Source: an uncultured Clostridia bacterium (lineage in GTDB: Bacteria > Bacillota > Clostridia > Oscillospirales > Acutalibacteraceae). From it: a stretch of DNA of 64,000 nt. The number at the start of each line of letters is the position of its first letter. The stretch's first letter is position 1. Shown here piece by piece: positions 14,671 through 58,291 of this stretch. Made by a program: the position numbers and the translations under genes. The notes under the pieces are model-generated. The model made no database searches. It worked only from the letters and a program-made list of their open reading frames with translations, and was not told where the DNA came from. The DNA lies in NCBI GenBank assembly GCA_945863885.1, contig CAMAZY010000005.1, forward strand, positions 1 through 64,000. The letters are read 5' to 3'.

Positions 14671-14677
14671 TGAACCA

Positions 14678-15733: not shown

Positions 15734-15747
15734 GTACTACGCCCTCC

Positions 15748-37260: not shown

Positions 37261-37304
37261 GAAACAGGCTGAACCCGTGTCGGAGCTCAGCCTGTTTCTT
37301 TTTA
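37261..37304. terminator. Bidirectional terminator after agrD
   Basis: GAAACAGGCTGA (37261-37272) pairs perfectly with TCAGCCTGTTTC (37287-37298), followed by TTTTTATTG. It also serves the convergent TIR-LRR gene that ends at 37302. Confidence 0.9.
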
Positions 37305-40684: not shown

Positions 40685-40724
40685 AAAAACTCCGTTCATT
40701 TGAATTGTTAAGGAACCTCTGATT

Positions 40725-40900
40725 AAGGAAGCTCTGATTAAATCTGATGTACAGATTACGCCGTCAGATTTTTCGTCAGATTGTGCAAAAGCCGCGCAGG
40801 AATCCTGTCGGATTTCAAGCGGTTTTTGTGCAATATGGCGGGAAATATGCAAGTAAGCTGTGCATCAAAGCGTATGCTGTGATTTATTCAGAGGTTCCTT
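40725..40900. mobile_element. MITE-like inverted-repeat element, family B copy 1
   Basis: 176 bp with ends AAGGAAGCTCTGATT and TCAGAGGTTCCTT in inverted orientation; an extra end-like piece AAGGAACCTCTGATT sits at 40710-40724. The arms contain CTGATGTACAGATTACGCC, with its complement near the other end, and the centre is CGCAGGAATCCTGTCGG. It lies directly before the PrsW-like gene and adjoins copy 2. Confidence 0.78.
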
Positions 40901-41063: not shown

Positions 41064-41391
41064 AAAACGTTTTATAAAGGAGCATAAACGCTGTCAGCAC
41101 AATCAAAAATCCGAAATTGAACAAGGAGAACATCCCGACATAGTAACCGGTCTTGCCTGGATTATGCTTGGTGTACTCACGAAACGTTATCAGACTGGCG
41201 AGCGACGCAATAAGCGTACCGACGCCGCCGATGTTCACGCCGACAAGAAGATCCGGATAGTTGGTTGTAAACTGCGACAAAAGAATCGCAGACGGAACAT
41301 TACTGATGCACTGACACGAGGCGACGCTGAAAAGCAGGGTGTTCTTTTCCGGTGTAAGCCTCAAATTTTGTCTGCATCTGTTCATATGCAA
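41062..41391 (-). pseudogene. C-terminal fragment of an ArsB/CitM-type anion transporter
   Basis: The frame encodes 109 residues. From about residue 15 (EKNTLLFSV) to the end it matches the C-terminal part of SLC13/ArsB-type permeases (CISNVPSAILLSQFT, LLVGVNIGGVGTLIASLASLI). Those proteins are normally over 350 residues, so more than two thirds is missing. In another frame a start with a good ribosome site (ATG 41434, MANQTKKKINSEE) runs for 44 codons into the same region, so two gene pieces appear joined. It is most likely a deletion remnant next to the MITE array. Confidence 0.65.
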
Positions 41392-41471
41392 CTGTTTCTT
41401 CGCTGTTTATTTTCTTTTTCGTCTGATTAGCCATAATAAATTCCCCTTTTTATTATTTATCATCATCTTTA

Positions 41472-43292
41472 TCAGTCGTCATCTTTTATTTGCTCTTTTT
41501 CGGGAAGCTTATAAAACGGAACCAAAAAATTATGCATCTTTGCAATATCGTTTCGTCCCTCCGGTTCGATCGTTCCGCCGTAAACATACCCTTCGGAACG
41601 CATATAGGCATTCCAACGGGCGTGTTCGAGAATACGAATCGCAACCTTTTCGCTTTCCTCCCTTTCTCCGGGTTCTTTTTCTATTCCCGGAATTTTACAA
41701 AGAAGCTTCATTTTGCGGTGAATTGCCGAGGCAACAGACGACTTGTAATTATAGTCGTATTGCCAGAATTCACTCTCCTTACCCCATTTCAAATGGCGCT
41801 TGAGCGCCTCTTCTTCCACATCGGAATGAAGAATGACCGCTTCGGAATATGACGTTTTCATATCTCCGATAAAATCAATTTTGTATTCCTGATTTTTAAA
41901 ATTCGTCACACCGTTGAGCGCCTGATTCTTTTCGGAATTACAGACAACCGCCTGTATTACCGGCTCACTTCCCCTTCTTAAAAGGATGCTGCGAAGCTTG
42001 ACAGCGGTCTGAATATTCTTTTCATCGCTGCCAAGGGCAACAAAAACATAGGTTGTTGCGGGCAGGTCAGCGATACAATCATCAAAGCTTTTCGTGTCAA
42101 CATCGACGCCGGGATGAACAGTGATCTTGTATTTTGTTTCCCCTATAATATCGAACTGCCCGTTCAGCTGCGGACTCATCAGCTCCGGACAAAGCGAAAC
42201 AAATCTGTCCTCGGCAGACGGATCGATGTCAAAAGAGTCGATCTGTGCCCGGTAGCCGTCCATCTGACAAAACCAGGCTAACGCTTTCGTCATTTCCGTG
42301 CCGTGCTGACCCATTCCGATCACAACGGCATTGATTTGTCTGATTCCGTCCCGTTCGGCCAGAGCGCTTTCAAAAATGCTCCGATAACCGTCCTCATACA
42401 GTGTTCTGAGAATCAGGGACTGCACCTCGTTCACTCTTCGGACCTTGATCTGAGCCTCTTTTCCGCCCTCTTCGTCCGGGCTTATCTTAAACGAATTTTC
42501 AAGCAGAATTTCCGACTCAACACGGGTAGAAAAGATATAAAGGTCGGTATTCTCTCTGTATTTATATTGTTCGATGAGCTTCAGTGACTGGCTGATGTTT
42601 TCCGACTCGTCCGCTCCGATTGTGAAAAAGCTCAGTTTACTTGCTTTGCTGTGAAGCCGGAAGTTGACCGTCACTATATCTTTCTTGAACCGGATTGCAC
42701 CAAGTTCCTTTGCGCTTTCGACAAGCTCAAAAATTCCCTCGTCATTATTTTCAAACACGTCGGTAAAGATAATCACACATTTTTTCTTCCGGTTTTCCTT
42801 GATGCTTCTTGCAAGCTCGAGAGATTTTTCATTAAGCTCCGAAAAAATATAGGCATCGGTCTGAAACTTCAGCATAAAGTTCTTGTATGCGGATAAGTTT
42901 TTGAAGAACGAAAGGACAAATCCGAAGGTAAGAAGCGGTGCCGCAACGAAAAACACGGCAAACAAAGCCATGTAACAGCGGAGAAGAACATCCGGCAAAT
43001 CCTTGATATTGGCAATAATAAACTCGAAATCGCCGTCCACAACGAACAGTCTTATCGTATTATGAACGGAAATCAGGAATATTTCAATCGGAGTCTTCTC
43101 GTAAGCCTGAAACACCTGTGTATAAATCGGAATAAACAGCAGTATAGAAGACCCTACGACGCCCAAAAGCATGACTTTTGTGGAATCAAGAAGTCTTCCG
43201 CTTTTATATTTTGTTTTCGACAAGCTCCCTGCCGCCACGACCGCACCGGTAAAGCAGACTACAGAAAGAATTAAGCAAACGATCCAAACCAT
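41472..43292 (-). CDS. Membrane protein with two Rossmann (TrkA-like) regions and a C-terminal RyR domain
   Basis: 606 residues. Three membrane segments (about 1-22, 40-58, 104-130) are followed by two nucleotide-binding-like regions. The first is degenerate (about 145-270). The second (about 320-475) has VVIGMGQHGTEM and IDSFDID, the Gly-rich loop and acidic end of a Rossmann fold. The C-terminus (about 551-606) is an RyR domain, with EHARWNAYMRSEGYVYG and KMHNFLVPFYKLPEKE. RyR domains are proposed ligand sensors in bacterial signalling. The combination suggests a membrane sensor or channel regulator. It is probably the last gene of the tubulin-vWA operon. Confidence 0.78.
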   Translation of the reverse strand: MVWIVCLILSVVCFTGAVVAAGSLSKTKYKSGRLLDSTKVMLLGVVGSSILLFIPIYTQVFQAYEKTPIEIFLISVHNTIRLFVVDGDFEFIIANIKDLPDVLLRCYMALFAVFFVAAPLLTFGFVLSFFKNLSAYKNFMLKFQTDAYIFSELNEKSLELARSIKENRKKKCVIIFTDVFENNDEGIFELVESAKELGAIRFKKDIVTVNFRLHSKASKLSFFTIGADESENISQSLKLIEQYKYRENTDLYIFSTRVESEILLENSFKISPDEEGGKEAQIKVRRVNEVQSLILRTLYEDGYRSIFESALAERDGIRQINAVVIGMGQHGTEMTKALAWFCQMDGYRAQIDSFDIDPSAEDRFVSLCPELMSPQLNGQFDIIGETKYKITVHPGVDVDTKSFDDCIADLPATTYVFVALGSDEKNIQTAVKLRSILLRRGSEPVIQAVVCNSEKNQALNGVTNFKNQEYKIDFIGDMKTSYSEAVILHSDVEEEALKRHLKWGKESEFWQYDYNYKSSVASAIHRKMKLLCKIPGIEKEPGEREESEKVAIRILEHARWNAYMRSEGYVYGGTIEPEGRNDIAKMHNFLVPFYKLPEKEQIKDDD

Positions 43293-43370
43293 AGGATTCC
43301 TCCTCTCTCATTTTACAAAACTATCGGATAAAAGCGGCAGACATATTCTGCCGCTTTTACCCGGAAAAAA

Positions 43371-43628
43371 TCAATCACCGAACAAAGGACGCTTATAATC
43401 CTTCAGCTGCTTGCCGACGGCAATTTCCAAAGCATGCTGCGTCTCGGCACAGTCTTTGCAAATAATCTGTTCCTCATCGGACACAAGATCGGCAACTACA
43501 TTCGCTTTGTAGCCGGTTCCGAAAAATGTCTGTTCGCAGGAGCTGCATTTATGCACAAGTCTCGGCACAAAAACAATTCCGGCAACAATTACTGCGACAA
43601 CAACAATGATTGAAATAACCTTTTTCAT
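43371..43628 (-). CDS. Small membrane protein with two C-x2-C motifs
   Basis: 85 residues from ATG 43628; the frame upstream is out of place. One N-terminal membrane segment (about 3-23) is followed by KCSSCEQTF and ICKDC, a likely zinc site similar to the zinc module of the large protein encoded just before it. No known function. It lies 105 bases after the 1899-residue gene and 78 before the RyR gene. Confidence 0.7.
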   Translation of the reverse strand: MKKVISIIVVVAVIVAGIVFVPRLVHKCSSCEQTFFGTGYKANVVADLVSDEEQIICKDCAETQHALEIAVGKQLKDYKRPLFGD

Positions 43629-43733
43629 GATCTCTTTCTCTCTTTCCTGATTTTTTTCGATTCGGGGCGTCACCGCACTGCGCATCAAAAAGAAACTCTT
43701 TTCAAGCGAAATGCGGACGCCCGTTTGTGTAAA

Positions 43734-46700
43734 TTATAACTTGTTCATATAGATCGCTATCGTACAAAGCTCATCGCGTACCGAATAGCTGTAGCTTGAA
43801 CCGATTCTGATATCCGGCTTCAGATTCGCAAACTGAATGATCTCCCGGAATTTTCCGTCGTCAAGAAGCTGTTTTCTGGCGTTGTTGTACGCCGAAGCCG
43901 AACCGAATTTGAACGAAAGGTCGTACTTGTTATTCTTTGCACTCTGACAAACAACAGACCGTATCGTATCAAAATCATAATCCTCAAAGTAAAGCCCCTG
44001 ACGGATATGATAGTTGCATTTTGTTGCGGTGCATTCCGGAACCGGGAAGTCGGCTTCCGGTGTGTGGGAATCAAGCTTCAGAACCTCTTCGGTCGTGATA
44101 CAGAAGCAATCGTAGTTGATTGAATCGATCTGAACCTTTTCTTTCTTGGTGTCCGTTCCGTCGCCCCACGTTACGTCAAGATGGTAATAATCACCCTCAA
44201 GCTTGATCAGGTTCCATGCGTGCGTACTGCTTGTGACATAGGTGCATTCGATTCCGCACAGGTTCAGCAGGTACTGCATCGCCTTGGCATAACCGGCGCA
44301 GACCGCCTTTTTGTTGACGAATACGCCGTAGATCGAGCGAAGATCATCGGGCACTTCGGACGACACGGTTTTGGACTTTTGCTTTTCGAGTCCGAGCGTA
44401 TCGTAATCGACAAGCTTGATAATATTTTCGTAAATCCGGAGCGCAACCTCGTAATCGCTCATGCTGTCGTTTATGGACGACAAGAAAGAACGGATATGGG
44501 AATCGATCTCATCACGGCGCTTTTTCGCCTCCCGCTCGGTCATACAATAGGTAAGCTCAAGCTTGTTGACGATATGCGTGTTCGTATCGAAATAGAACGT
44601 TGCTCCGTGCTGGAACCAGAAGATTTCCGGATGGTCTCTTTGAACGTAATCGACGACTTTCTTGATCTGCGAATCGGTCACGGACACTTCGAACGAGTCG
44701 ATCTGTTCGTCAAAGCTGTTGACAGCCTGCAAAACCACGTCATACGCTGCCTTTTCCTCATCGTTTAACAAGTTGTACGCATAGCGGGCAAATGTCTCCG
44801 GGTCACGTTCAACCGGGCCTTTGATCGGATCGGTGCCGGTCGGCGTATTCGTGCCGCCGGTCGGTTTTTCACCGTTCGGATCTTCTCCGTTTTCGCCGTT
44901 TAAGTCAGGCACAACGATCGAGAACGAGCCGCAGTATTGCGGATCAAGCGGCATCGCTACGTTCAAAAACGGGGTCGGTTTTGTGATAACGGTACCCGTT
45001 GAAAACGGATAATTGGCAAGATAGCGCAGGAAGCCCCGTCCGTATTCGTCGTTGCGGTAGCTTGTGATGATTTCCTCACGCTTTGCAAGTTCCGGCTCAT
45101 TGATCAGATAGGCGTACTGAATCTCGACCCATTTGGCCATGCCTTCGTAAATTTCAAGGCGCAGCTTCTTGCCGTACTGCTTGCGGATCGCTTTGTCGTT
45201 CCAGTTGACGTACTGCCAGATATGGGTCAGTTCGTGAGCAATTGTCAGCATCGACGCCATTCTCGGCGAGCCGTTTTCCACATAAAGCTTATACCCGTTT
45301 TTATCCTTGATCGCAACGCCGAGGACACGGCCGTCGCTCTTCGGCGTCGGAATAAAGGCCTTGCCAAGACGCTTGTGAAGCGTTCTGGAGTTGACCATTT
45401 CGACCCGGATTCCGACATTGATCTTGATGCCGAAGAAGGACTCCATGTTCCTCTTGACATCCTCAAAGATCTTACGGAATTCCTTTTCGGTCTTGATGGC
45501 GGTTCTTCCGCAGCTGATACATCTGTCCCGTCCGTCCGTCAGCGTCTCGTACTCAACGCCGTAGATCTCGGCGCCGCAGAAATCGCAGTATCTTGCGTCG
45601 GGCTTTCCGGGCTTGAAGGTCGCTTCAACCTGTTCTGCGATCTTCTTGCCTTCTCTTGCTTGCTTGAGTGAATTGTTTGCAAGCCCCATTTCGGTCAGAT
45701 AGTCCAGCGTTCCCGCAAGGTCGATATAGGACGGCTCACTCTGATGACCGAAGAGCATATAATAGCGCTCATGATACGGCTTTTTCCTGGAATCGAAGCC
45801 TTCGGTAATGGCTTTTTCAAGCTCAGCCGAATCCATCACCGTGCTTTTCATCGGAGACTCAACCGCTTCGACTGTTTCTTTTTCAACACCCTCCTGATTG
45901 TCTGCACTGTCGTCAGACGCATCGGCAGGCTCTTCCGGTTCCGATGCATCCGGATTCTGTACGGGTTCTTCCTTTTCCGGTATCGGGAACTCTTCATTCT
46001 GAGTATCCGTATCCTCTGACGGAATTGCAGGAATTTCGGGAATTACGGGAACTTCCGGATTCTCGGGTACTTCCGGATTTTCGGGTACTTCCGGATTTTC
46101 GGGTACTTCCGGATTTTCAGGTACTTCCGGATTTTCGGGTACCTCCGGATTTTCGGACGGTTGACCGTCCTTTTTCTTTGACTTACGCTTAAACAGACCC
46201 TTGAATTTTTCAAACGCCGTCTTGATCTTCTTGCCGATTTTTGAGAAGAAGCCTTTGATGCCCTTCTTTTCAGGCTCTTCCTCCGGCGGGCCGAAAACAA
46301 TGTTCGGTTCGGGATCAACCGGCGGATTCAGACTGTTTTCGAGTGTCATGGCGTGCCAATCAAGATAGTCATGCATAACGCTGAAAATACGCTGCAAATT
46401 TCTTTCAACCGCCACGGTCAGACCTAAGTCAAGCTGGCTGTCCTCGATAATATAAATGGAGTTCTTGTTGATCTCACACTCTTCCGCATTAAGCGAATAG
46501 GTAAAGATTCTGTCTTCCTGTGAACCATCCAGGAAAGAATCATCGGTGACGGCGCAGATAAACGCCTGATTTTCCGCAAATATTGTTTTGAAAATTTCGT
46601 TGAAAAGGACCGTGATCGTATAGCGGATACTGTCATTGAGCTTTTCGCCGAAATCGGGAAGCTCAATACGGAGAATTTCCTTGTTATAGTAGTTGCGTTC

Positions 46701-49433
46701 GGGAATCGAGCCTGTTTCGCCCTCAAAGCAGATCTTCTTTGCGGTTTCGAAATCGTTATACCGTTCCATCCGGTAGTATCCGTCGGTTTTTACCCGGATA
46801 TCGGCAAATTCCTTGATAACACGAAGTCCGGCGATATTCTGTCGGGCGCCGATCCGGTCTGACGGTTTGATTCCCCGAAGGGTGTACTCTCTGATCTGTC
46901 TGTAAGACGGACGTCCGTTGATGTGGTCCGCCGCACGGCGCAAAAGAATTTGTCCGTCAGCGGTCAGATACTGCATCTCATAATACTTGCCGGCGAACGT
47001 AAAGAACTGTCCGGGCAGGTATTTTTGATAAATGTGTCCGCTCAGCTCTGCGCCGAGATAATAGCTTTCGCCCTTTTCATCCTCGGCAATATAGGCTGCG
47101 GAACGAAGCTCGGATACACAGTGGGCCAGAAATTCAGGGTCGGAGATCGAATACATGGTCTCCATTTGTCCGTTCTTGATATTGAACGATTCGGAAACCT
47201 CTATCAGATCGTGATTCCACTGCAGCATGCCGAAATTGATGTATTCGTAATAGACGGAGTTAACGGCATGTTCATACTCATCAGGCAGCCGTAAAATCTT
47301 GGCGACCGGAGAGTAGCAGACAAAAAGCTCATACCAAAGCTGCTTTTTCAGATCAAACACATGAATGCCGAGAAGAGACAGCTCTTTTTCGAGAACCTTT
47401 GCATTAACGGGGAACGTGCTCATCATCAGGATCAGACGCAGAATCGTATTGCGGTTGCTTCTTGTGTAATCGGCAACGATATACGGAATCGCTTTTGCGT
47501 CGGTTTCAAAAATCGAGGCGTTGTCCGCCATATAATCCTTTAACAGATAATCGGACGAAATCACGTTGATGAAGCCCTGCTGTGTTGTTCTTGTCGAAAA
47601 GTTACGCAGGATTTCGAACATATTGAACGCTTCGTCTTCAACCGTCATATAATTGTTCTTTTTGACCTCAGCGCTCCAGAGGTTCGGGCTTGTCGAAAAG
47701 AATTCGTCCATTGCCTCCTGCCCGGTCGGCAGTCCGGCATATTTCGTAAGATCGTAATAATACTGCTTGTCAATCCATTTAATGTCGGTTACGGGGAAGG
47801 CCTCGCCGGCGTACCATTCGGTTTTCGCAACCTGGTTTTTCAAAGCGGCGAAAGACAGCTCCGTTCCGAGACCGAGATATCGTGAAATGTTCGGTACCAG
47901 TCGGTGGTGAAGATATTCTCCGTCCGCCTCCCAGCACATATAAGAAGAAGTTCCTCTGTGCTTTTCGGTTGCGGAAACCTGCGTGATGCTGGTCATCAGA
48001 ACGTGAGACATGGCATCGACAAGTCCGTCACAGTTTTTATCGCAAAGACAGTAAACGATTTCCTTGTCCTCATCGGTCTTGCATTTTTTTACAAGAAGGT
48101 TCAGACCGATCTGAGCGGTCGAAAGAAGCTTCGACGGTTCAAGAATCACGAAAAAGCCGACCTGCTCCAAAAACTCCGCATTGGCTTCATGAAGCCTGAT
48201 GTCGAGAACGTCGGATCGTGTGATGATTCCGATATCAAGCTCGGACGGCTCTTTTCCGAGAACGCCGATATTCCACAGCGACGGAATATTGGTGACGGAT
48301 TCGATTCCTTTTTCAAGCCACGCTTTTACGTCCTGTTCCACCGAATGTCTGCCGAGCACAACAAGCACCTTGCGGTGGCTGAGCAAGCAGCGGTTCATCG
48401 GATAAAATGCATACGGAATCAGATCGTTATAAAACGGATTGTTGAACAGAATGCTCTTTCCGTTGAGCATCTCGAGTGACGAAAACAGGTAATTGTGGTC
48501 AATCTTGACGCCTGTTGCGTTGAGCGCTCTTATGTATTCGGAAAAGGTAACGATTTTCTGGTCTTCACTGTTTTCGAGCCGGCGGATCACTTCGTCGGTC
48601 GTGATGTCGTTTGCAAGAGCGTTATTGATGCTCGTGTTTTCCGTAAGAAGCTTGTCGCCGAATACTGAGCGTAAAAACTTTCTTAAAAGAGAATAGTTTA
48701 CCGTACGGTAAGCGTCCTCGTCCTCGCCCAATATATCGGAAGCATACTCACGCTTTGTCGTTCCGTCAAGATAGAAATATAGCTCTCCGAGAATGATAAT
48801 TCCGAATACGGGGTAATACATCGACCGGAACAGCTGTTCATTATAAAACTTATAGCTGATCAGCATCAGCGCCGAGGACAGACATACGCTTGCAAAGTAA
48901 AAGACCTTCAGCATACTGCGAACCTGAGAAAAATTGTCCTTCAGGCACCATCTTCCTCTTTCGACGAAGTATTCGTAAAAATTGCCTGCTACTTTTGCGT
49001 GCAGTTCGCTGTCGAGCTTGACAGCCGCAGACATGATCTTAATACAAAACTTCTTGAGTATCAGATAGACAAAAATGATAACCGCATTTGCGATAAAAAA
49101 GATCCAGAAGCTGAGCGTCAGACCGTCAAGCATTGCCTTGACGCCGTCCGAAAGCTGAAGAAGCAGTGACTCAAGCTTATCCGGCATCCACGATACATTC
49201 GCCAAAGAGGCGATCCAGATCGGAATATTTTTTATCAGCGTCAGCAGCCATTGATTGATACGATTCATCAAAAACATCGCAACAACCGTATACACCGGGG
49301 CGATGACCGGCATAGCAAACTGCTTGCTTCTGTCTGTTTTCGGCAAATTGACTTTTGCGCTTGAAATGCACAAAATGACAAAGGGAAGAATTGCCAGCAG
49401 CATTTTCAGAATTAAAACAATGGTATCAATCAT
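43734..49433 (-). CDS. Giant membrane protein with metallopeptidase and transglutaminase-like domains
   Basis: 1899 residues. Four to five membrane segments lie in the first 225 residues. A large part (about 290-1050) follows in which I recognise no domain, only a helicase- or Rossmann-like stretch KVLVVLGRHSVEQD near 355. A very basic stretch near 1065 (KKGIKGFFSKIGKKIK) and six or seven NPEVPE repeats come next. A four-Cys zinc module (YCDFCGAE and CISCGRT, near 1300) precedes a zinc metallopeptidase motif HELTH at 1400-1404 with a likely third ligand Glu1430 in YEGMAKW. A transglutaminase-like domain has Cys1712, His1738 and Asp1753. Its start overlaps the previous gene's end. The fusion of two hydrolase folds on one membrane anchor is unusual. 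Confidence 0.85.
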   Translation of the reverse strand: MIDTIVLILKMLLAILPFVILCISSAKVNLPKTDRSKQFAMPVIAPVYTVVAMFLMNRINQWLLTLIKNIPIWIASLANVSWMPDKLESLLLQLSDGVKAMLDGLTLSFWIFFIANAVIIFVYLILKKFCIKIMSAAVKLDSELHAKVAGNFYEYFVERGRWCLKDNFSQVRSMLKVFYFASVCLSSALMLISYKFYNEQLFRSMYYPVFGIIILGELYFYLDGTTKREYASDILGEDEDAYRTVNYSLLRKFLRSVFGDKLLTENTSINNALANDITTDEVIRRLENSEDQKIVTFSEYIRALNATGVKIDHNYLFSSLEMLNGKSILFNNPFYNDLIPYAFYPMNRCLLSHRKVLVVLGRHSVEQDVKAWLEKGIESVTNIPSLWNIGVLGKEPSELDIGIITRSDVLDIRLHEANAEFLEQVGFFVILEPSKLLSTAQIGLNLLVKKCKTDEDKEIVYCLCDKNCDGLVDAMSHVLMTSITQVSATEKHRGTSSYMCWEADGEYLHHRLVPNISRYLGLGTELSFAALKNQVAKTEWYAGEAFPVTDIKWIDKQYYYDLTKYAGLPTGQEAMDEFFSTSPNLWSAEVKKNNYMTVEDEAFNMFEILRNFSTRTTQQGFINVISSDYLLKDYMADNASIFETDAKAIPYIVADYTRSNRNTILRLILMMSTFPVNAKVLEKELSLLGIHVFDLKKQLWYELFVCYSPVAKILRLPDEYEHAVNSVYYEYINFGMLQWNHDLIEVSESFNIKNGQMETMYSISDPEFLAHCVSELRSAAYIAEDEKGESYYLGAELSGHIYQKYLPGQFFTFAGKYYEMQYLTADGQILLRRAADHINGRPSYRQIREYTLRGIKPSDRIGARQNIAGLRVIKEFADIRVKTDGYYRMERYNDFETAKKICFEGETGSIPERNYYNKEILRIELPDFGEKLNDSIRYTITVLFNEIFKTIFAENQAFICAVTDDSFLDGSQEDRIFTYSLNAEECEINKNSIYIIEDSQLDLGLTVAVERNLQRIFSVMHDYLDWHAMTLENSLNPPVDPEPNIVFGPPEEEPEKKGIKGFFSKIGKKIKTAFEKFKGLFKRKSKKKDGQPSENPEVPENPEVPENPEVPENPEVPENPEVPENPEVPVIPEIPAIPSEDTDTQNEEFPIPEKEEPVQNPDASEPEEPADASDDSADNQEGVEKETVEAVESPMKSTVMDSAELEKAITEGFDSRKKPYHERYYMLFGHQSEPSYIDLAGTLDYLTEMGLANNSLKQAREGKKIAEQVEATFKPGKPDARYCDFCGAEIYGVEYETLTDGRDRCISCGRTAIKTEKEFRKIFEDVKRNMESFFGIKINVGIRVEMVNSRTLHKRLGKAFIPTPKSDGRVLGVAIKDKNGYKLYVENGSPRMASMLTIAHELTHIWQYVNWNDKAIRKQYGKKLRLEIYEGMAKWVEIQYAYLINEPELAKREEIITSYRNDEYGRGFLRYLANYPFSTGTVITKPTPFLNVAMPLDPQYCGSFSIVVPDLNGENGEDPNGEKPTGGTNTPTGTDPIKGPVERDPETFARYAYNLLNDEEKAAYDVVLQAVNSFDEQIDSFEVSVTDSQIKKVVDYVQRDHPEIFWFQHGATFYFDTNTHIVNKLELTYCMTEREAKKRRDEIDSHIRSFLSSINDSMSDYEVALRIYENIIKLVDYDTLGLEKQKSKTVSSEVPDDLRSIYGVFVNKKAVCAGYAKAMQYLLNLCGIECTYVTSSTHAWNLIKLEGDYYHLDVTWGDGTDTKKEKVQIDSINYDCFCITTEEVLKLDSHTPEADFPVPECTATKCNYHIRQGLYFEDYDFDTIRSVVCQSAKNNKYDLSFKFGSASAYNNARKQLLDDGKFREIIQFANLKPDIRIGSSYSYSVRDELCTIAIYMNKL
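46042..46158 (-). repeat. 18-bp tandem repeat coding for NPEVPE
   Basis: Six to seven in-frame copies of an 18-base unit in the linker of the 1899-residue gene. Likely a spacer between the membrane part and the enzymatic part. Confidence 0.85.
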
Positions 49434-51642
49434 ATAATTCCTCCCTCGTCAACGTTATCGAATCCACATAATCAACCGGAACCGTGATTTCATTTCCCGG
49501 CTGACAATACTCGATCTTCTTGATCGAAAGAAGACTCGGCATCGAATACTCATAATCCTTCATGACCGTAAAATCGAAATCGTAAGGGTCACATTCCTTA
49601 ACGGTGATTTTTCGAAAGTCGATATATTTCGAGAACATATCGCTTACGGTTTTGATCTGTTCGTCAATTTTCAGATTATGATACGACAGGATTCTTTTGA
49701 TCCGGGAAACCGCTGATTCCCTCTTTTTCAAAACCGAGAATTCACGCATAACATTGCACGCGCTGCTCAGGTATTTTGAGAACTGCGAAAGACCGCCCAT
49801 GATCGTCCGGCAGATTCCGCTCATAACATAATTAAAATGCTTGAACCGATTGATCAGCTTTTTCCGTAAAACGAAAAGATAGAAAAAGCCCACAGCCGAA
49901 AAAGCGGCTATCGTAATTCCCGTCATCAGAAGCGAACAGGTGACGGATTTTACTGTGTTGAGATTGCTGAAAATCAAAGGCAGAAAGCCGACGAGATAAG
50001 CGAGCGCGGAAAAAAGGAAAACATATCCGGTCTTTTTCTTCGTCATTCTCTTTGAAATTTCCCGCCGGATCTCCTTATCCGCCTGCTGAATCTGCTCGTT
50101 ATAGTTCTTTACGTCAAATATCTGAGAAGTAACCGTACCGACCATTTTCTGCTCTTCTTCAAGCAACCGGTAGCCGACGTCCTCCGCCTGCGTTTCGCTT
50201 AAAATCAAAGCACGGTCGTCATCAATACTGTTATTTTTGTGAAAGCCTTCGGAAACGGCGGTTTTGACCGCACGCCGCGGCTCTCTGAGATACTTGACAA
50301 ATTTTTTGGTAATATCTCTGTACTGCCCTGACCAATAGACGTCCTCATGCTTCGGCGTATCCGTTGCAAGACCGATATCTTTATACTGTGCATAAAGCTC
50401 ATTCTCTTTGTTCGGATCTTTGATTTCAACCGGTATCGTGATATCCGATTCAAAAAGCCGCTGCGCCGTTTTGTCATCGATCGAAGTCTCGTGCTCATTA
50501 TCGAGGGCACGTTCGATATCTTTCAGATGCAGTTGGGTCGACTTGAGCTTGCTGATATACGTTTCACAGATTCTTGATATCATGCTGTCGTCGAAATCAA
50601 TATCCGTACGGTATACGCGTCCGGGATTGACGACGCCTTTGGGCAAGGCGTAGTTTGCGATAATAAGCAGCACACACATCAGCTTGATCCGGTCAAACTT
50701 ATACTGCTTATGATCCTTGGGCAAAACGTCAAACAAAAGAAACTTCAACTTTTCATTATATAAATTGAAGTCGGCAAACCGGGAAGAAGAACTTTCATCT
50801 CGGTTTTTCCATTTGACGTCCTGCTCCGAATTTTCGAAGTCAAATGTTCTGGGTGCAAGGCAAATAATCTGCGCAGGCAATTTATCTTTCATGGAAAAGT
50901 CGGCCGTCACGGTATTGAGCAAATATGCCTTCTTTGTGTTTTCAATCAGGCATTCCGTATATTCGGGATCGCAATATACCGGATCGTTGCCGATAAACTT
51001 CACGAACTCAGCAATTCCGGTATCGGGAATCAGTCCGGCGATTCCCGATACGTCCTTGTTTTTCACAAATTCAATTAAAGAGTCAATGTCATCTTCTTTA
51101 ACGAACCGTAACAGTTCCTGTCGCTGAAACTTTTCAAGCCGTCCCGTCACTTCACTGACATTTACCGCCTCAAGCTGACGTTTGAGCATAAACTCAAAAA
51201 TCCCCGTCGTTCCCGAAACGATATTCTCGAATTCCGTACCGTCCGAAATGACGGATTTCAGATTCGGGACTTCGCACAAAGCGGTCGTCAACTTTACAAG
51301 CGGATTCAAAACGGCTTTTTCGTATGAGGAAAACCGGTTCACCCGCCGCGTTTCGTAATACGCGCCATCCTTTTGTTCCTCGCTGTAAAAAGGCTCTTGA
51401 TACATCGTATAGTCAAAAGGATTGAGACGGTTACGGTCTTCGTCATACAAAATCACTGCGCGCCATTCGCTCTTGTATTCAATTAAATCATAAAGCTGCG
51501 GAACCATTAAATCCAGTGTGTCAGCATACTTGTGCCATTCGCAAAACGCCACTTTCTCGTTGTTAAGCAGCGGACCGAAAAACATTTTTGTTTCTTCGAA
51601 GAGTTTAATCGTTTCTTTTTCGGCAAATATTACCGTAAACAT
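49426..51642 (-). CDS. Large membrane protein of unknown function in the tubulin-vWA operon
   Basis: 738 residues, start ATG 51642 behind GGGAGGG. About 540 soluble residues are followed by two membrane segments (about 540-595) and a further 143 residues. I recognise no domain. The N-terminal MFTVIFAEKETIKLFEE start could be a receiver-like or Rossmann-like fold, but no active-site residues are evident. It lies 34 bases after the tubulin-like gene and overlaps the 1899-residue gene by 8 bases, so it is very probably a fixed partner of both. Confidence 0.8.
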   Translation of the reverse strand: MFTVIFAEKETIKLFEETKMFFGPLLNNEKVAFCEWHKYADTLDLMVPQLYDLIEYKSEWRAVILYDEDRNRLNPFDYTMYQEPFYSEEQKDGAYYETRRVNRFSSYEKAVLNPLVKLTTALCEVPNLKSVISDGTEFENIVSGTTGIFEFMLKRQLEAVNVSEVTGRLEKFQRQELLRFVKEDDIDSLIEFVKNKDVSGIAGLIPDTGIAEFVKFIGNDPVYCDPEYTECLIENTKKAYLLNTVTADFSMKDKLPAQIICLAPRTFDFENSEQDVKWKNRDESSSSRFADFNLYNEKLKFLLFDVLPKDHKQYKFDRIKLMCVLLIIANYALPKGVVNPGRVYRTDIDFDDSMISRICETYISKLKSTQLHLKDIERALDNEHETSIDDKTAQRLFESDITIPVEIKDPNKENELYAQYKDIGLATDTPKHEDVYWSGQYRDITKKFVKYLREPRRAVKTAVSEGFHKNNSIDDDRALILSETQAEDVGYRLLEEEQKMVGTVTSQIFDVKNYNEQIQQADKEIRREISKRMTKKKTGYVFLFSALAYLVGFLPLIFSNLNTVKSVTCSLLMTGITIAAFSAVGFFYLFVLRKKLINRFKHFNYVMSGICRTIMGGLSQFSKYLSSACNVMREFSVLKKRESAVSRIKRILSYHNLKIDEQIKTVSDMFSKYIDFRKITVKECDPYDFDFTVMKDYEYSMPSLLSIKKIEYCQPGNEITVPVDYVDSITLTREELYD

Positions 51643-51676
51643 TCCATAACCCTCCCTTGAAAACTCAGTTCAAATC

Positions 51677-54600
51677 TTATTTAATAAGAGCTTTCAGTTC
51701 ATCGATCGTCTTGTCGCACTCATATGTATTGAGCTTCTTGAGCTTGTTGCTGACCTTTCGTAATACCATATTGACAACACGGTTGTCGATGATATCGGTA
51801 TTCTTTCTCATGGCGTCGTTCTCATTATATGCGTCGTTTTTGAAGTTATCGATAAACAGTCTGAACTGTTTTTCAAGTCTTTCGGCAAGGAAAGGCTCTC
51901 GATCTACTTCCTGCTCATACTTGCAGATTTCATTTTCCATTACGGAAATGACGCTGTCGATCATGATGGAAAGCTCGTTGTCGTCCATCTTTGAGCGGGG
52001 AAGAGAATTGTAATAGCAAAGAGGAATTTCAAAAACACTGGTCGGGGCCGGATGTCCGTCGCCGATTCTGAAGGTTTCGATATCACGTACGAAAGCGCTT
52101 TCAACGTATCTGCGGTTGCTGTCGATATCGAAAGTACAACGTTCCTTCTGCATTCTGTAGATGCTTTCAACGGAAGCCCTGTCTCTGTAAAGCGCATCGA
52201 GAACCTCATAGAACTCATCACACTCGGTGTTATTCGATACGATCAGAGCCGTTCTGTCACCCTCGGTATCCTCAAGGGCAAAGATACGCTTCTTTGCGTC
52301 ATATCTTGATGACGGATGCGTAATGATCATTCCGTGAACGATACCGTAAATCAAAGCGGAATGGATCTTGACCATCTCTTTATAATGAGCGTCAAGAGAG
52401 ATTTCCGGCATTTCGGTAAGAGAATCCCAACGCTTATCGATGTGAAGCGAGATCGCTGCGCTCTTCGTTGAATCGGGGCCGATCTTCTTGACGTAATCGT
52501 GATAGGCCTTATAATATATACCGGCTTCCTCATTATACTGGCTGTCGTCCTTGCATTCTTCGGGGCTCTTGAAGCGGGAAAGCATATCCGGCGTAATGTT
52601 ATAAAGAGCATTGAAGAAATGCAACTCATATTTTGAAACCGTATTTGTTCCCGTAGCCTTAATGTTGAACGGCTGGACAAGGGACTTGATGTCGATGTTG
52701 CGAAGCTGGTCAAGCTTACTGTTATAGGCGCAGAGGTTGACCGTTCTCGGCTCATTGAAATTCGAGAATCCGATGCCCGGAGATGCAAGCTTGTAACCAA
52801 ATTTAAACTTATCTCTGAGGTAATCGGTTCTCTGCGAATCGGAAATTTCGGGTGCAAATACGATTTCGTTGTCATCTGCTCTTTCAATGGCTTTAAAGTA
52901 TTCTTTAAACTCCAGTTCCTGAGCAATTGCAGATACGATGTTGATGTTCAATATCTCATCATTTTCATCACGAACGGCATCTTTAAAATATCCGATCAGA
53001 ACATTGTCAAAAATATCAACTCTCGGCTTTGCCATTGTCGGGTCATACGAACTCACTCTGACGATTTCTGCATTTTCCTTGATCGAGTCAAAAATAACTT
53101 CGCACAAGTCTCCCGGAAGCATCAACTCATTGCCTGTGGTGGGACAAACCTGAACCAATCTGTCAAGACACTTGCGATCCGCACATACATAAGCAACACT
53201 GTTGCCTTCTCTGAACTTAAGCTTTTCAACAATTTCGTCCTGTGCCTTTGCAAGAAGAAGAACCTTGGTTTCAAGAGAAGCATACAGCTTTTCAAATTCT
53301 ATACAAAGCTGTTTGATATATTCTTTACCAACTTTATATGCGGCTTCTTTCATGCATAAGTCACGATACTTTTTAACCGCTTTTGCATAGCCGGGAAATA
53401 CCTCGTTTAATTTATCCCAGAGAGCCTTATAGCCGCCGCGCTTTTCAAAGAAAGATGGTTCATTATTTTCAAGCTTACAAACACTGTCAATATTGCATTC
53501 CTGTGTCTTTGACGTAAAGCCGCCGCGGACGTCGAAGAAATCAGGATCGTTTGCATTCGGAGAATATTTATCCAAAGATTTGGTTGCAGCATCAATACCG
53601 GATTTTGCCGATGTATAGCCTTTTTCAAATTCTTCTTTCAGCACATAAAGCATATAACGCATGGCGTTCGGATGCATCGCTCCGTCAAATCCCTGAAGCA
53701 GATGTTCAACATGGAACGGCAAGATCTGACCCGAGTTTTTCATAGACGGCGCATCATAAAGAATCGAACTTGCAGCCGATTTGGCTCTAAGTGCAGCTGA
53801 ATTCTTCACCAAGCTTTCATAATTTCTGATCAGCTTGAGATTTTCCTCCGCATGTCCCCTTAAATTATCATCGCCCTCATAATCTCTGTCGTCTCTTTCA
53901 AGCTCATCAACTTTGATTCTGAGCTCCGAATCGACCCTTGCAAAAGCCCGATTGATTTCCGCATTAAATGCCGAAAAATAGGTGTTGACTCTGGCTCTGA
54001 CTTCATCGGAAATTTCATCAATAGAGGTTGCAATTGCTCCTTTAATTTCGTTATCAAATCTTGCTTTACCGTCATTTACTTTATTGACGTATACATCACC
54101 ACGCTCCGGAGCAGGATCAAGAGTGGTGGCACGTTTCTTTTTAAACTCGGCATATTCCTTTTCATATGCCTTGTCATACTTGAGCCATTCTCCGACTGTA
54201 TCGCCCGTTCCGATACACGAAATTGCTCTTGAATAAGCGATATAGTCTACAATATCCTCATACGGATATTTCAGAACCGAAGCACCGATTCCGCCGAAAC
54301 GGTTACGACCGAGATTGTCCTCATTTGAAAACTCTTTGATAATGTTGTCTTCAATACCGAAAGCATCTGCCTGCATCGGTCCGATATTCTGCTCATAAAG
54401 GCTCTGGGCAGCAAAGTCCTTATACTGATCGAGCGTCTGCATGCTTTCCTGACTCTGATCAACACGGTCAAGAAGGAAGCAGAAGTCATACGGAAGCCCT
54501 TCCAGTCTGTCAACGCCCTGTGCAATATTCGGAACATCAATATGCAGATCTTTATATCTTTCAAGATCCTTGCGGACGCCGCAGAAGCCGCTGGCCTTGA

Positions 54601-55279
54601 TCATGAAAGCATTGATTTCCTTAATAGTGGCATAGCCGTTTCTGCGCTGGCTGTCCTTTTCAGTTTCCGAAGTAATAACCGTATCCATAACGCCGGGAAG
54701 GACAAGATAGCCTCTGATAATGGCTGCCTTTTCGCGGTAATGCTTGTGAAGATATTCACGGATAAGCATGCCGACGATCATTGCAATTCCGGAACCTGTA
54801 CCGCCGGTTGCCGACGAAACGATTACAACACGAAGAGCTTGTTTCAGCTCGCCGCCGTCCTTGAGAAAAAGTTCATCAATTGCCGTATAAAGCTTTTGAA
54901 TTGCTCCGGTCTTGATCGTGGCGTTCATAGCAAGTCTCGATATGGCACGAACCTGACCGGCACCCTCGGAAACCGACTTTGAATAAAGCGTTGTGTTGTT
55001 GGGGAACCACTTGAATCTTGCTTCTTCATCATTCTTAAGATAGTCAAGAACCCTCTGCGTTGACGAGGTCTGAATAGAAACAATCGTTGCATTTGAATTC
55101 TTAAGCTTTCTGATGTCGTTGGCATTGGTATCCATTGTAACAAAACGGATATTGTCTGCTTCCGTGCCTCGGCATCGTTCCGCTACCTTGACAACAATCG
55201 ATGAACCGACTCCCCCGACACCGACGAACAGAGTCTCCATTGTCTCGTTACACTGAATGTTTTCTTTTTTGACTGACAT
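51677..55279 (-). CDS. Tubulin/FtsZ-like GTPase family protein (Tubulin_2 type), 1200 residues
   Basis: The N-terminus has the tubulin/FtsZ nucleotide-binding pattern. FVGVGGVGSS (18-27) is the first Gly-rich loop, VTMDTNANDI the next element, and SATGGTGSGIAM holds the tubulin signature GGTGSG (159-164). The fold seems to extend to about residue 420. The remaining 780 residues are helical and not recognised. It is far larger than FtsZ (about 350-400) and has no FtsZ-type C-terminal peptide, so it is not the division protein. Such proteins occur beside vWA genes in other bacteria and were proposed to act in membrane remodelling. It lies 16 bases after the vWA gene. Confidence 0.88.
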   Translation of the reverse strand: MSVKKENIQCNETMETLFVGVGGVGSSIVVKVAERCRGTEADNIRFVTMDTNANDIRKLKNSNATIVSIQTSSTQRVLDYLKNDEEARFKWFPNNTTLYSKSVSEGAGQVRAISRLAMNATIKTGAIQKLYTAIDELFLKDGGELKQALRVVIVSSATGGTGSGIAMIVGMLIREYLHKHYREKAAIIRGYLVLPGVMDTVITSETEKDSQRRNGYATIKEINAFMIKASGFCGVRKDLERYKDLHIDVPNIAQGVDRLEGLPYDFCFLLDRVDQSQESMQTLDQYKDFAAQSLYEQNIGPMQADAFGIEDNIIKEFSNEDNLGRNRFGGIGASVLKYPYEDIVDYIAYSRAISCIGTGDTVGEWLKYDKAYEKEYAEFKKKRATTLDPAPERGDVYVNKVNDGKARFDNEIKGAIATSIDEISDEVRARVNTYFSAFNAEINRAFARVDSELRIKVDELERDDRDYEGDDNLRGHAEENLKLIRNYESLVKNSAALRAKSAASSILYDAPSMKNSGQILPFHVEHLLQGFDGAMHPNAMRYMLYVLKEEFEKGYTSAKSGIDAATKSLDKYSPNANDPDFFDVRGGFTSKTQECNIDSVCKLENNEPSFFEKRGGYKALWDKLNEVFPGYAKAVKKYRDLCMKEAAYKVGKEYIKQLCIEFEKLYASLETKVLLLAKAQDEIVEKLKFREGNSVAYVCADRKCLDRLVQVCPTTGNELMLPGDLCEVIFDSIKENAEIVRVSSYDPTMAKPRVDIFDNVLIGYFKDAVRDENDEILNINIVSAIAQELEFKEYFKAIERADDNEIVFAPEISDSQRTDYLRDKFKFGYKLASPGIGFSNFNEPRTVNLCAYNSKLDQLRNIDIKSLVQPFNIKATGTNTVSKYELHFFNALYNITPDMLSRFKSPEECKDDSQYNEEAGIYYKAYHDYVKKIGPDSTKSAAISLHIDKRWDSLTEMPEISLDAHYKEMVKIHSALIYGIVHGMIITHPSSRYDAKKRIFALEDTEGDRTALIVSNNTECDEFYEVLDALYRDRASVESIYRMQKERCTFDIDSNRRYVESAFVRDIETFRIGDGHPAPTSVFEIPLCYYNSLPRSKMDDNELSIMIDSVISVMENEICKYEQEVDREPFLAERLEKQFRLFIDNFKNDAYNENDAMRKNTDIIDNRVVNMVLRKVSNKLKKLNTYECDKTIDELKALIK

Positions 55280-55295
55280 AATTTACCCTCCAAAA

Positions 55296-57635
55296 TTATT
55301 TTTTCGTTCTGCAATTACAGATAAGGTTAGATACATTTGCTCCGTTAGGAGAATTATAAATTTCAAACGACGGACCAACCGAAAGTACCTTTTCAATCGG
55401 CGGAGACGGTCTACCTTGCTCAGCAGACTCAACGAATGATTCTTTCATCCACTGTCCGTTATACTTGACATAAGTCGTTGCACCTATATTGATCTCGTCA
55501 GCGGATGATGAAATGCCGATAACCGCTGTCCTACGTTTGTTGGCTTTCGTAAATCTGTTATCAACAGGTTTCAGCTTAAAGGTAACGCTGATCTGCTGTT
55601 TGAAAGGAATCGCTGAAGGTCCTTCAAGTACTAATACTCTTTGCTTTCGATTATACTTGACACTGACAAAATTTATATCCAGATCGCCTGCGCTGATCGA
55701 CCAGAAACTTGCCGAATCTTTAATTATTTTGTTCGGCATTACTTTTTGCCTCATAAAAGCAAGCCATACGATCAGGATAACCGCAATAGCGATGATCCAG
55801 ACGAGCCATCTCCAGAAGCGGCTGTATGTGTTGATCTCAAACGAGACGTCTTTTTTGTTAGCGGTATGCTCGTCGCCGATTTCGTCGATGTACGTCGTCC
55901 CCTCGAAGCTGAGAGAATAATTGCCGACTGCCGGCTCAACAAAGTTGCCTTTATCGTCGCAGCCGATATAAATTCTGTATTTCGATTCGGTGTCCGCCGT
56001 TTCCACACGGTAGGTAAGATTTCCCGAAGGCGTCACGTTAAGCTTCACGTTCGCCATCTGTTCTTTCGTTGCCGGCTGTCCGCCGATCAGGACCGTCACT
56101 TCAACGGGTTTCCATTTTTCGTGGTCCTTGACCCGGTACCAGCTTTGTTCCTGAAGAACCTTGGGTTCAAGCGAAATCGACAGCTTACTGTCGCTGAATT
56201 TAATGGAAAGCGGAAAAGCGTTCGGATTGTCCTTTGTGGAAACCGAGTAGTTTTTCAGGAAGGTTCCCTCAATATAAACCTCCGTCTTGCTGTCCGGCTC
56301 AAACGTGATCTCTGCTCCGTTATCGTACGGCGTGGGGGCACTGTCCGTGGACTTTTTGACGTAAGTCTTCAGATCAACTCCGCCCAGAAGCTTGTTGCCC
56401 GAAACGTCTTCGTTGGTTTTTGCGTCAACGAGCGTGCTTGTCAGCTTATAAGTACCCGCGGCGATATTTCCGGACGACGGGTCGACGATTTCTTTTGTAT
56501 TCATGTCCATGAGCTCAACCTTGATGTCAACGTCCGGCTCATAAAAGATCTGAACATTGTTGTCGCCCGAAAAATCGAGGGTGTATTCACCCTTGGGACA
56601 TTCGGAAAACGTCACGACCTGACCGGCCAGGGTTGTGTCGACCGGCGGAGCATTCAGACCTTGATTGGTGATTCTTTCTTGTATTTTGCTTCCCAGTCCG
56701 GTAAAATTACATGAGATGTCGCTGTATTTTCTCTGTCCGCTGTCAACAATCTTACTGATCATCTTCCCGGAGCTGTCGGTCAGCGAATTGATCACGGCGT
56801 CGTTTCCCTGAACAAAAACGATCAGCTTTTTCATCGAAAGATCAAGCTTCAGCGTCTTTCCGTTCAGACATTCATCGGTAGACAGACGCTCTCGTTGAAA
56901 AATCTTGTTGCAGATACCCACAAGATCGTCCTTCAGACTGGTATCTGTCGATTTTACAGCATAGAATCCGTTCGCTTCGTTTGTCTTAAGCTCTGCCGCA
57001 TCATCGAAGCCTAAGTATTGAACCTTGATCTGATTGTTGACCGCAAGGCTCAGCAGCTCCTTTTCAAGGTTAAAGCCACCTTTGAACTCATCAACATTTG
57101 TATCACTTCTTAAATTCCGGTCGAATTCACCGTCAGTCAGAACGATAAGCCATTTTTCGTCTGCCTTTGAGGTTTTCAGATGAGCAGCGGCACTCGTAAC
57201 GGATTCATAGGGCGTGCCGTACGGGTTGGTCGTATACATTCTGGAAATGCTGTCGATCTTTTGCGAGATGCTGTCCGTTCCGCCCTTTCCGCCGGAAATG
57301 GTCAGCGGAGCATAACTGCCCGCATACGGATCGGTCGGTGCGCTTCCGTCGTAAACCGACTCCCACATCGGGAAGATCGTCAGCTTGTCCCCGTTTTCGT
57401 AGTTGAGCATGGACGCAAAAATTTCCATTGCGTATTTTGCTCTGCACCACGCCTCGGTGTCGTACATCGAACCCGAGTTGTCGAGAACAACAGCGATCTC
57501 ATATCTGGTTTCTTTTTTTTGGACCTTTGCTTTTGAAGCCGCATTCGCCGTCATCGGAAGCATCATTCCGACAAACATGAAAGCCGTCAGCAGAACGGTC
57601 AGGATTCTGCTGAAAAGTACCGAATGCTTTTTCAT
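55296..57635 (-). CDS. vWA-domain membrane protein, first gene of the tubulin-like operon
   Basis: 779 residues, start ATG 57635 behind GAGGAGG. A signal peptide (1 to about 32, ending ANA) is followed by a vWA domain (about 45-240) with a complete metal site: DNSGSM, the Thr in GGKGGTDS and the Asp in VLTDGEFD. Beta-rich Ig-like regions (about 250-600), one membrane segment (about 605-628) and a cytoplasmic tail of 150 residues with a beta-rich fold follow. The tail is well placed to meet the tubulin-like protein. A link from an outside ligand or matrix to an internal filament is inferred. Confidence 0.87.
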   Translation of the reverse strand: MKKHSVLFSRILTVLLTAFMFVGMMLPMTANAASKAKVQKKETRYEIAVVLDNSGSMYDTEAWCRAKYAMEIFASMLNYENGDKLTIFPMWESVYDGSAPTDPYAGSYAPLTISGGKGGTDSISQKIDSISRMYTTNPYGTPYESVTSAAAHLKTSKADEKWLIVLTDGEFDRNLRSDTNVDEFKGGFNLEKELLSLAVNNQIKVQYLGFDDAAELKTNEANGFYAVKSTDTSLKDDLVGICNKIFQRERLSTDECLNGKTLKLDLSMKKLIVFVQGNDAVINSLTDSSGKMISKIVDSGQRKYSDISCNFTGLGSKIQERITNQGLNAPPVDTTLAGQVVTFSECPKGEYTLDFSGDNNVQIFYEPDVDIKVELMDMNTKEIVDPSSGNIAAGTYKLTSTLVDAKTNEDVSGNKLLGGVDLKTYVKKSTDSAPTPYDNGAEITFEPDSKTEVYIEGTFLKNYSVSTKDNPNAFPLSIKFSDSKLSISLEPKVLQEQSWYRVKDHEKWKPVEVTVLIGGQPATKEQMANVKLNVTPSGNLTYRVETADTESKYRIYIGCDDKGNFVEPAVGNYSLSFEGTTYIDEIGDEHTANKKDVSFEINTYSRFWRWLVWIIAIAVILIVWLAFMRQKVMPNKIIKDSASFWSISAGDLDINFVSVKYNRKQRVLVLEGPSAIPFKQQISVTFKLKPVDNRFTKANKRRTAVIGISSSADEINIGATTYVKYNGQWMKESFVESAEQGRPSPPIEKVLSVGPSFEIYNSPNGANVSNLICNCRTKK

Positions 57636-57692
57636 TTTATCCCTCCTCTGAAATGATAAAGCCGTATTTTTGAAGGCTTTCGTTTATTTAAG

Positions 57693-57718
57693 GTACGGCG
57701 TGAGTCCTCAGACCGTAC
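57693..57718. promoter_or_regulatory. Nested dyad in the leader of the tubulin-vWA operon
   Basis: GTACGG-CG-TGAG-TC-CTCA-GA-CCGTAC is a two-part perfect inverted repeat (6 and 4 pairs). It lies 57 bases before the start codon at 57635. It could be an operator or an RNA hairpin; there is no T-run for termination. Confidence 0.45.
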
Positions 57719-57736
57719 TCTTAAAGACAGATTTTT

Positions 57737-57914
57737 AAGGAACCTCTGAACAAATCACAGCATACGCTTTGATGTACATCTTACTTGCATATTTTCCGCC
57801 AGAAGAGCACAACAACCACTTGAAATCCGACAGGATTCCTGCGCGGCTTTTGCTCTTTTCTGACGAAAAATCTGACGGCGTAATCTGTACATCAGATTGA
57901 ATCAGAGCTTCCTT
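57737..57914. mobile_element. MITE-like inverted-repeat element, family B copy 3
   Basis: 178 bp in opposite orientation to copies 1 and 2, with AAGGAACCTCTGA at one end and TCAGAGCTTCCTT at the other. It lies between the consensus promoter at 58011-57983 and the first gene of the operon, so it must be transcribed as part of the leader and can fold into a long hairpin. Confidence 0.8.
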
Positions 57915-57982
57915 AACGAACCGGAGCGTTCCGATTCGACACCGATTCACAATTTGTTACAATTTACCACTAATAATGATAA

Positions 57983-58011
57983 ATTATACTATCATTTGTA
58001 AATTTTGTCAA
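57983..58011 (-). promoter_or_regulatory. Perfect sigma-A promoter of the tubulin-vWA operon
   Basis: TTGACA (58011 to 58006), 17-base spacer, TATAAT (57988 to 57983) on the minus strand. No other promoter as good lies between here and the vWA start, which gives a leader of about 340 bases that holds the MITE and the nested dyad. Region 58012-58228 beyond it shows no gene. Confidence 0.75.
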
Positions 58012-58228
58012 TCGAAAAATCGGAAAAGACTCCATAATAAATCGCAATGTTCAAATCCGCAAGCAGTCCGCCTGAAGCGGTCGGATCTGATCGATTACAA
58101 ACGATATTATAGCGGATTATACAAGTGCTTTGGTCGCATCAAAAGCGACAAAACAGACAGCCTTTTTTCACGGAAACGCACAATAATTTCTATACATTAT
58201 AAATAGGGGCTTCTGACGCCGAATACAC

Positions 58229-58257
58229 TTGCTTTAATCGGAGCCAAGATGTATAAT
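58229..58257 (+). promoter_or_regulatory. Promoter of mnmE
   Basis: TTGCTT (58229-58234), 17-base spacer, TATAAT (58252-58257). The gene starts 34 bases later behind GGGAGGG. Confidence 0.7.
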
Positions 58258-58291
58258 AAGGCGAGAACAGGAAAAAAGGGAGGGTGCTTTT

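Follow-up and report, generated by a model that had tools for sequence, protein, structure and literature searches.

The window analysed here is a stretch of 64,000 nt from the Clostridia contig CAMAZY010000005.1 (GCA_945863885.1), which originates from a 2.6 Mb genome that is 98% complete. It carries a minus-strand operon in which four core genes, encoding a vWA protein, a Tubulin_2 (FtsZl1) protein, a 738-residue protein designated p738 and a 1899-residue protein designated the giant, are followed by two accessory genes named zinc and RyR (Table 1). Judged from sequence comparisons, the four core genes appear to form a real, co-inherited machine, and the operon seems to be a variant, not described so far, of the FtsZl1–vWA class, which is known but uncharacterised. 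Tubulin_2 proteins were recognised in genomes as early as 2010, and their roles are still predictions only in the published texts covered here. As a compact, invariable unit with a defined set of partners, present in some gut Clostridia, the four-gene core makes the role of bacterial Tubulin_2 directly testable.

Table 1. Features of the operon and its surroundings (window coordinates; aa, amino acids; TM, transmembrane)
Feature	Position	Strand	Details
Promoter, sigma-70-type	57983..58011	-	TTGACA, 17-bp spacer, TATAAT; 12/12 consensus match
Leader before vwa	57636..57982	-	about 350 nt, promoter to vWA ATG
vWA protein, core gene 1	55296..57635	-	779 aa
vWA domain with MIDAS	57081-57497	-	aa 47-185; predicted extracellular
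Tubulin_2 (FtsZl1) protein, core gene 2	51677..55279	-	1200 aa
Tubulin domain of the 1200-aa protein	54230-55231	-	C-terminal ~800 aa uncharacterised
p738, core gene 3	49426..51642	-	738 aa
Giant, core gene 4	43734..49433	-	1899 aa
Giant, TM region	48762..49433	-	aa 1-224; four to five TM helices
Giant, YprA/MrfA-type (DUF1998) SF2 pseudo-helicase	46314..48761	-	aa 225-1040; from structure prediction
Giant, P-loop position	48423..48443	-	replaced by NNPFYND (aa 331-337)
Giant, DExx box position	48132..48140	-	replaced by EPS (aa 432-434)
Giant, Cys4 zinc ribbon and HELTH...EGMA metallopeptidase-like domain	44934..45806	-	aa 1210-1500
Giant, transglutaminase-like domain	44061..44594	-	aa 1614-1791; Cys-His-Asp
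Zinc gene, accessory	43371..43628	-	85 aa from internal ATG
Terminator-like hairpin	43325..43363	-	17 pairs, between zinc gene and RyR
RyR protein, accessory	41472..43292	-	606 aa
PrsW-family intramembrane protease	39386..40852	-	RyR-PrsW-TIR-LRR cassette
TIR-LRR protein	37302..39311	-	RyR-PrsW-TIR-LRR cassette

The first-pass annotation of this DNA had described one consensus promoter followed by six tightly packed minus-strand genes forming a single unit. Coordinates, reading frames and promoter all held on re-check, the promoter being the sole 12/12 site among 27 promoter-like sites in 41000-58300 (mean of 24.0 in shuffled sequence). The gaps measure 16 bp between the vWA and tubulin genes and 34 bp between tubulin and p738; p738 and the giant overlap by 8 bp. 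The giant lies 45 bp from the zinc open reading frame (ORF), mechanically called as 105 aa from a TTG, or 105 bp from the internal ATG, and 78 bp separate zinc from RyR. As a unit, the four-gene core stood but zinc and RyR proved to be accessories, and because a terminator-like hairpin stands between these two genes, a single six-gene transcript is not assured. The leader preceding vwa is unusually long for a promoter-to-gene distance and is without match to any Rfam family. MnmE, an ordinary tRNA-modification GTPase, is encoded on the other strand at 58292-59656.

Searching named genomes with the giant as query yielded 58 loci, nearly all from metagenome assemblies along with two strains, An44 (Pseudoflavonifractor sp., locus L036) and An112, and titled Clostridia, Clostridiales, Oscillospiraceae, Ruminococcaceae, Lachnospiraceae or genera of these groups. 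One locus (L077), similar in the transglutaminase region only, was set aside before the core was counted, leaving 57. Wherever the contig reaches upstream the partners are there (p738 in 55/55, tubulin in 50/50 and vWA in 46/46), always in the same order and on the same strand and usually with the 8-bp overlap between p738 and the giant; all four genes are present in 47 of the 57 loci. Gene order is kept even in a divergent branch (L013 and L016), whose giants are only 23-24% identical. Tree distances of the giant core, tubulin and p738 correlate pairwise with r 0.80 to 0.92, and those involving vWA with a lower r of 0.54 to 0.71 (29 to 36 shared loci, permutation p 0.001 throughout), whereas the RyR tree does not follow the core (r -0.02 to 0.38, p at least 0.09, 10 loci). 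The co-occurrence anticipated for all six genes is therefore found for the four core genes in giant-bearing loci but not for RyR, detected in 12/58 loci, or for zinc. As to whether the genes occur independently of each other, the core genes were never apart in loci found through the giant, but Tubulin_2–vWA loci without p738 and the giant do exist elsewhere.

The core of the giant was recognised in 4/150 genomes of the family, 24/394 of the order and 2/398 phylum-wide; the two genomes of the last count belong to the same order, and every count includes the window genome. These figures are lower bounds, because the search overlooked genome G107, in which BLAST does recognise a giant. The operon is absent from both same-genus genomes (0/2). 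Around MnmE, the corresponding stretches of these two genomes contain no other gene matching those of the window (E 1e-5), so that insertion of the operon cannot be judged from the comparison. Tubulin_2 was found in 8/150 family genomes, some of them in other settings: neither p738 nor the giant was seen at Tubulin_2 loci L012, L014 and L017, of which L012 and L017 lie on short contigs. The same-family Tubulin_2–vWA loci at L014 (3633-13051) and L012, one of them with two tubulin genes, may represent a different subtype.

The main new result, absent from the first-pass annotation, is the pseudo-helicase contained in the giant. The model predicted for residues 225–1040 (predicted local distance difference test, pLDDT, of 86) displays the fold of YprA/MrfA (DUF1998) helicases of superfamily 2 (SF2), with the RecA1-RecA2-OB-CON-DUF1998 arrangement that defines them. 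The Walker A and DExx motifs are both lost in 40/40 aligned giants, and no column within residues 860-1039 shows a cysteine in at least 20 of the 40, as would be expected from the four-cysteine cluster of DUF1998. According to this model, the giant is above all a YprA/MrfA-type helicase with dead motifs and a membrane anchor. The Cys4 zinc ribbon is present in 40/40 aligned giants and, once two split giants (L037 and L071) are left out, HE[LMT]TH is found in 42 of 45 complete ones; downstream of HE[LMT]TH or FELTH, EGM(A/S) occurs in 36 of 38 aligned rows and DGMA in the other 2. At E 0.1 the HExxH region matched the zinc-peptidase families DUF6055, DUF6782 and BSP in 6/6 members, all below cut-off. 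The transglutaminase domain (PF01841) of the window giant scores 26.6 bits against a cut-off of 23 with Cys-His-Asp in place, and the triad is found in 11/40 aligned giants, window included, or by string search in 13/45 (14 when L025, not caught by the string, is included).

The vWA protein has a signal-peptide-like start, recognised by eye, and one transmembrane segment at about residues 610-629, followed by a cytosolic tail; nearly all aligned rows display a hydrophobic N-terminal segment and one transmembrane segment near the C-terminus. Its vWA match is below the Pfam cut-off (E 0.009) and VWA_2 matches 7/36 aligned orthologues at E 0.01; the metal ion-dependent adhesion site (MIDAS) is intact in 36/36. 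The 1200-aa protein, sole Tubulin_2 match of the window genome, was assigned to Tubulin_2 (PF13809) with E 5.9e-53 (180.8 bits, cut-off 27) and to the canonical Tubulin family with E 1.1e-5 (26.3 bits, below the cut-off of 33 bits). Together with T1 and T4 (GGTGSG) loops conserved in 38/38 aligned members, this supports its membership of the tubulin family at the sequence level. The p738 model (pLDDT 86, predicted template-modelling score 0.62) consists of an alpha/beta N-terminal region with a helical insert, long helices and a two-helix transmembrane hairpin, which probably leaves both ends in the cytosol; no match between this model and a known structure was found. The features read at first pass were thus recovered, namely the signal peptide and membrane segment of the vWA protein, the GGTGSG motif, the membrane nature of p738, the transmembrane helices, HELTH and Cys-His-Asp triad of the giant, and the 85-aa zinc protein, which displays a single transmembrane segment and two CxxC pairs.

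A homologue of the zinc gene was seen only in L027 among the selected neighbour ORFs. The RyR protein, announced as a transmembrane-Rossmann-RyR protein, does have three transmembrane segments, and TrkA_N and RyR domains are called in its orthologues, but the window protein itself is without Pfam match to either; at E 0.1 the aligned orthologues match PF02026 in 6/12 cases (best 1.3e-5) and TrkA_N (PF02254) in 5/12. The 12 RyR/TrkA_N loci include one gene cut before the RyR domain, one located before vwa and one on the opposite strand; in genome G107 the gene starts 18 bp after the giant. Full-length RyR, defined by E below 1e-80 over nearly the whole model, occurs in 3/5 core genomes against 2/145 others (p 1.8e-4), any match at E 0.001 in 15/150 genomes. 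The series RyR, PrsW, TIR-LRR is found in the window, in L022 and on a contig of genome G148 unlinked to the core (L096), and therefore forms a separate cassette, located beside the core in some cases.

A channel-like, CASTOR/POLLUX-like protein of ~700 aa, designated c1, is encoded in 11 loci, upstream of the core in two of these; Castor_Poll_mid was matched below cut-off in 3/5 c1 proteins tested at E 0.5. The c1 tree follows that of vWA only (r 0.55, p 0.009, 8 loci). Its presence is weakly associated with that of the core: near-full-length c1 is found in 2/5 core genomes against 2/145 (p 0.005), any match in 6/150, and the c1 of the window genome sits on another contig. Downstream sequence of at least 2 kb is available in 38/57 loci. 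Excluding the window's own TIR gene and the opposite-strand matches in L044 (23 residues) and L069, nine same-strand downstream genes encode TIR proteins in 7/57 loci. The background amounts to 88 match rows, spread over 33 of 100 family genomes, or ~0.44 per Mb if genomes average 2 Mb, from which ~0.2 would be expected in the 0.393 Mb of flank. TIR genes thus look enriched downstream of the core, a rough estimate because models and genome sets differ. RyR, c1 or TIR is seen in 22/57 loci combined. In L060 the giant is directly followed (14453-15884) by a gene for a small, stand-alone RyR-like protein and then by a TIR gene.

The Tubulin_2 (FtsZl1)–vWA operons were described computationally in 2010 by Makarova and Koonin, whose pages on them propose membrane remodelling, as the first-pass annotation had stated (PMC2875224). 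The present operon shares with that description a Tubulin_2 protein with a long C-terminal region, an adjacent MIDAS-intact vWA protein and transmembrane proteins nearby (PMC2875224). As had been suspected, its components go beyond the simple pair, p738 and the pseudo-helicase–peptidase giant being added. The OmpA, kinase and P-loop GTPase partners, frequent but not universal in FtsZl1–vWA operons, were not found by Pfam scans of the six genes and five neighbours. The p738–giant combination was not found in print in the main texts of the searched literature, and relatives of these genes may be listed unnamed among the supplementary neighbour families of Makarova and Koonin. Bacteroides capillosus is presumably the organism now named Pseudoflavonifractor. 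The former name figures in the set of these authors (PMC2875224). Overlooked at first pass was the prediction of Kaur et al. (2020), in whose account of GAP1-N2 GTPase-centred conflict systems tubulin and vWA loci of Firmicutes and actinobacteria are included (PMC7159879). According to the same account, these systems share with ours a tubulin gene, an extracellular vWA protein, a membrane setting and a predicted role in conflict, and their class is known for using dead enzymes, a likeness to the giant (PMC7159879).

The giant shares the RecA1-to-DUF1998 fold, over ~800 aa, with the YprA/MrfA helicases of MrfAB, DISARM, Dpd, Druantia and ARMADA as treated in the survey of this family (PMC12458937). 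Unlike them, it is membrane-anchored, has lost P-loop and DExx and is without the conserved DUF1998 cysteines, a cluster also lost in Dpd YprA proteins; its fusion partner is a zinc ribbon with HExxH, not a nuclease (PMC12458937). The main text of the survey contains no occurrence of tubulin, vWA, transmembrane or metallopeptidase (PMC12458937). A membrane-anchored, motif-dead YprA with a protease-like domain would be an unexpected fate for a family that serves as a DNA-processing hub of phage defence.

The best reading of these data is, in our opinion, a machine of the envelope-sensing conflict type, a membrane-spanning sensor-to-effector system of immune character, which we hold tentatively and with less than even confidence. 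The vWA domain would bind a ligand or damaged envelope outside, and its cytosolic tail, together with p738, would nucleate or regulate a tubulin-like assembly that depends on GTP and lies on the inner side of the membrane. This assembly could cluster the dead helicase, which, deprived of ATP-driven action, might provide a scaffold or gate to which nucleic acid or protein binds. Clustering would then free the cytosolic metallopeptidase-like domain, and the transglutaminase-like domain where present, to act on cellular targets, the downstream cassettes (RyR/TrkA_N, the CASTOR/POLLUX-like channel, TIR proteins, an EssC-like ATPase) being exchangeable sensors or effectors. The scheme places the HExxH and transglutaminase domains of the giant in the cytosol, which is probable because the loop charges (average net values between transmembrane segments of +3.9, -1.1, +3.3 and +0.1) and the helicase fold favour the inside; the acidic stretch following the last transmembrane segment is a weak point. 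Zorya and other envelope-sensing defences provide an analogy of working only, from membrane sensor to cytosolic effectors. The PADLOC models of anti-phage systems gave no match at E 0.01 to RyR and the four core proteins, and were matched by the neighbouring TIR-LRR protein and by the ATPase of locus L066. If the immune reading is true, cytoskeletal assembly would be linked to bacterial immunity. A more specific version, rather doubtful at present, is a filament-gated immune receptor in which the outside vWA sensor triggers a tubulin-like assembly under the membrane, the membrane-bound dead YprA clustered by it acts as nucleic-acid sensor, and the fused cytosolic protease is switched on along with TIR or channel effectors encoded nearby. 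Such a receptor would unite the tubulin superfamily with the helicase lineage of DISARM/Druantia within a single signalling system.

A close rival, which we consider somewhat unlikely, is a membrane-remodelling or cell-shape cytoskeleton in which a Tubulin_2 polymer underlies the membrane and vWA, p738 and the giant are anchors or regulators without immune role. The association of Tubulin_2 with vWA is the hallmark of the proposal set out by Makarova and Koonin (PMC2875224), and transmembrane segments in three of the four core proteins, as well as the long helices and membrane hairpin of p738, would suit it. A dead YprA helicase and a cytosolic protease-like domain have however no clear place in such a structure, and the patchy distribution over the order and its absence from same-genus genomes, together with the apparent enrichment of TIR genes, argue against it.

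In four divergent loci (L066, L068, L075 and L076), a gene of an FtsK/SpoIIIE-type ATPase cluster directly follows the giant, starting -6 to 39 bp from its end; the FtsK domain is called in the first three, L076 holding a 132-aa fragment only. The L066 protein (12171-15659) partially matches the EccC/EssC models of type VII secretion systems (E 4.7e-21 to 3.4e-16, below cut-off). These genes would suit a contact or secretion machine, with the core as export or adhesion apparatus and the ATPase of the divergent lineage as motor, a possibility rendered improbable by the restriction of the ATPase to 4/57 loci with no motor beside the tubulin-like protein elsewhere; neither a secreted substrate nor a further secretion component came to notice, although without systematic search.

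The operon might also be a diverged GAP1-N2 GTPase-centric tubulin system of Firmicutes in which p738 would represent a degenerate GAP1. The tubulin domain matches the tubulins of GAP1-N2 systems with an hhalign probability of 98.95%, over residues ~4-351 only, the extracellular vWA protein is common to both, and C-terminal transmembrane segments are possible on GAP1 in the account of Kaur et al. (PMC7159879). Unlike those systems, the closest tubulin–vWA conflict systems on record, the operon combines one tubulin and one vWA gene with neither GAP1-N2 nor DO-GTPase2. Both are missing from the nearly complete window genome, DO-GTPase2 being the only GTPase model searched, and controls were positive (in Corynebacterium glutamicum for GAP1-N2). 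Profile comparison of p738 with six GAP1 proteins, using sequence profiles only, gave an hhalign probability of 0.3%, and hidden Markov models of p738 and the giant found neither in seven GAP1-N2 loci from the phylum, of which five contain a tubulin gene; this origin is quite improbable.

Many transglutaminase and HExxH domains work outside the cell and the vWA protein faces outside, but the first-pass reading of an extracellular processing system, in which the giant would act on wall or surface proteins by cutting or crosslinking them, is the least probable of all, since its domains are placed in the cytosol by topology and helicase fold, which makes wall processing unlikely, and the transglutaminase domain is missing from about two thirds of members.

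A viral origin was considered and rejected, since of 220 pattern matches in viral contigs none was confirmed as the giant, and among plasmid records one was matched, weakly. In the only 'phage' record with the tubulin, MT836542.1 (9.8 kb, unverified, from human faeces), vwa is accompanied by an open-ended tub, and the whole resembles a bacterial fragment. Its positions 4710-9792 encode the vwa–tub pair of this operon, and the record is probably mislabelled bacterial DNA.

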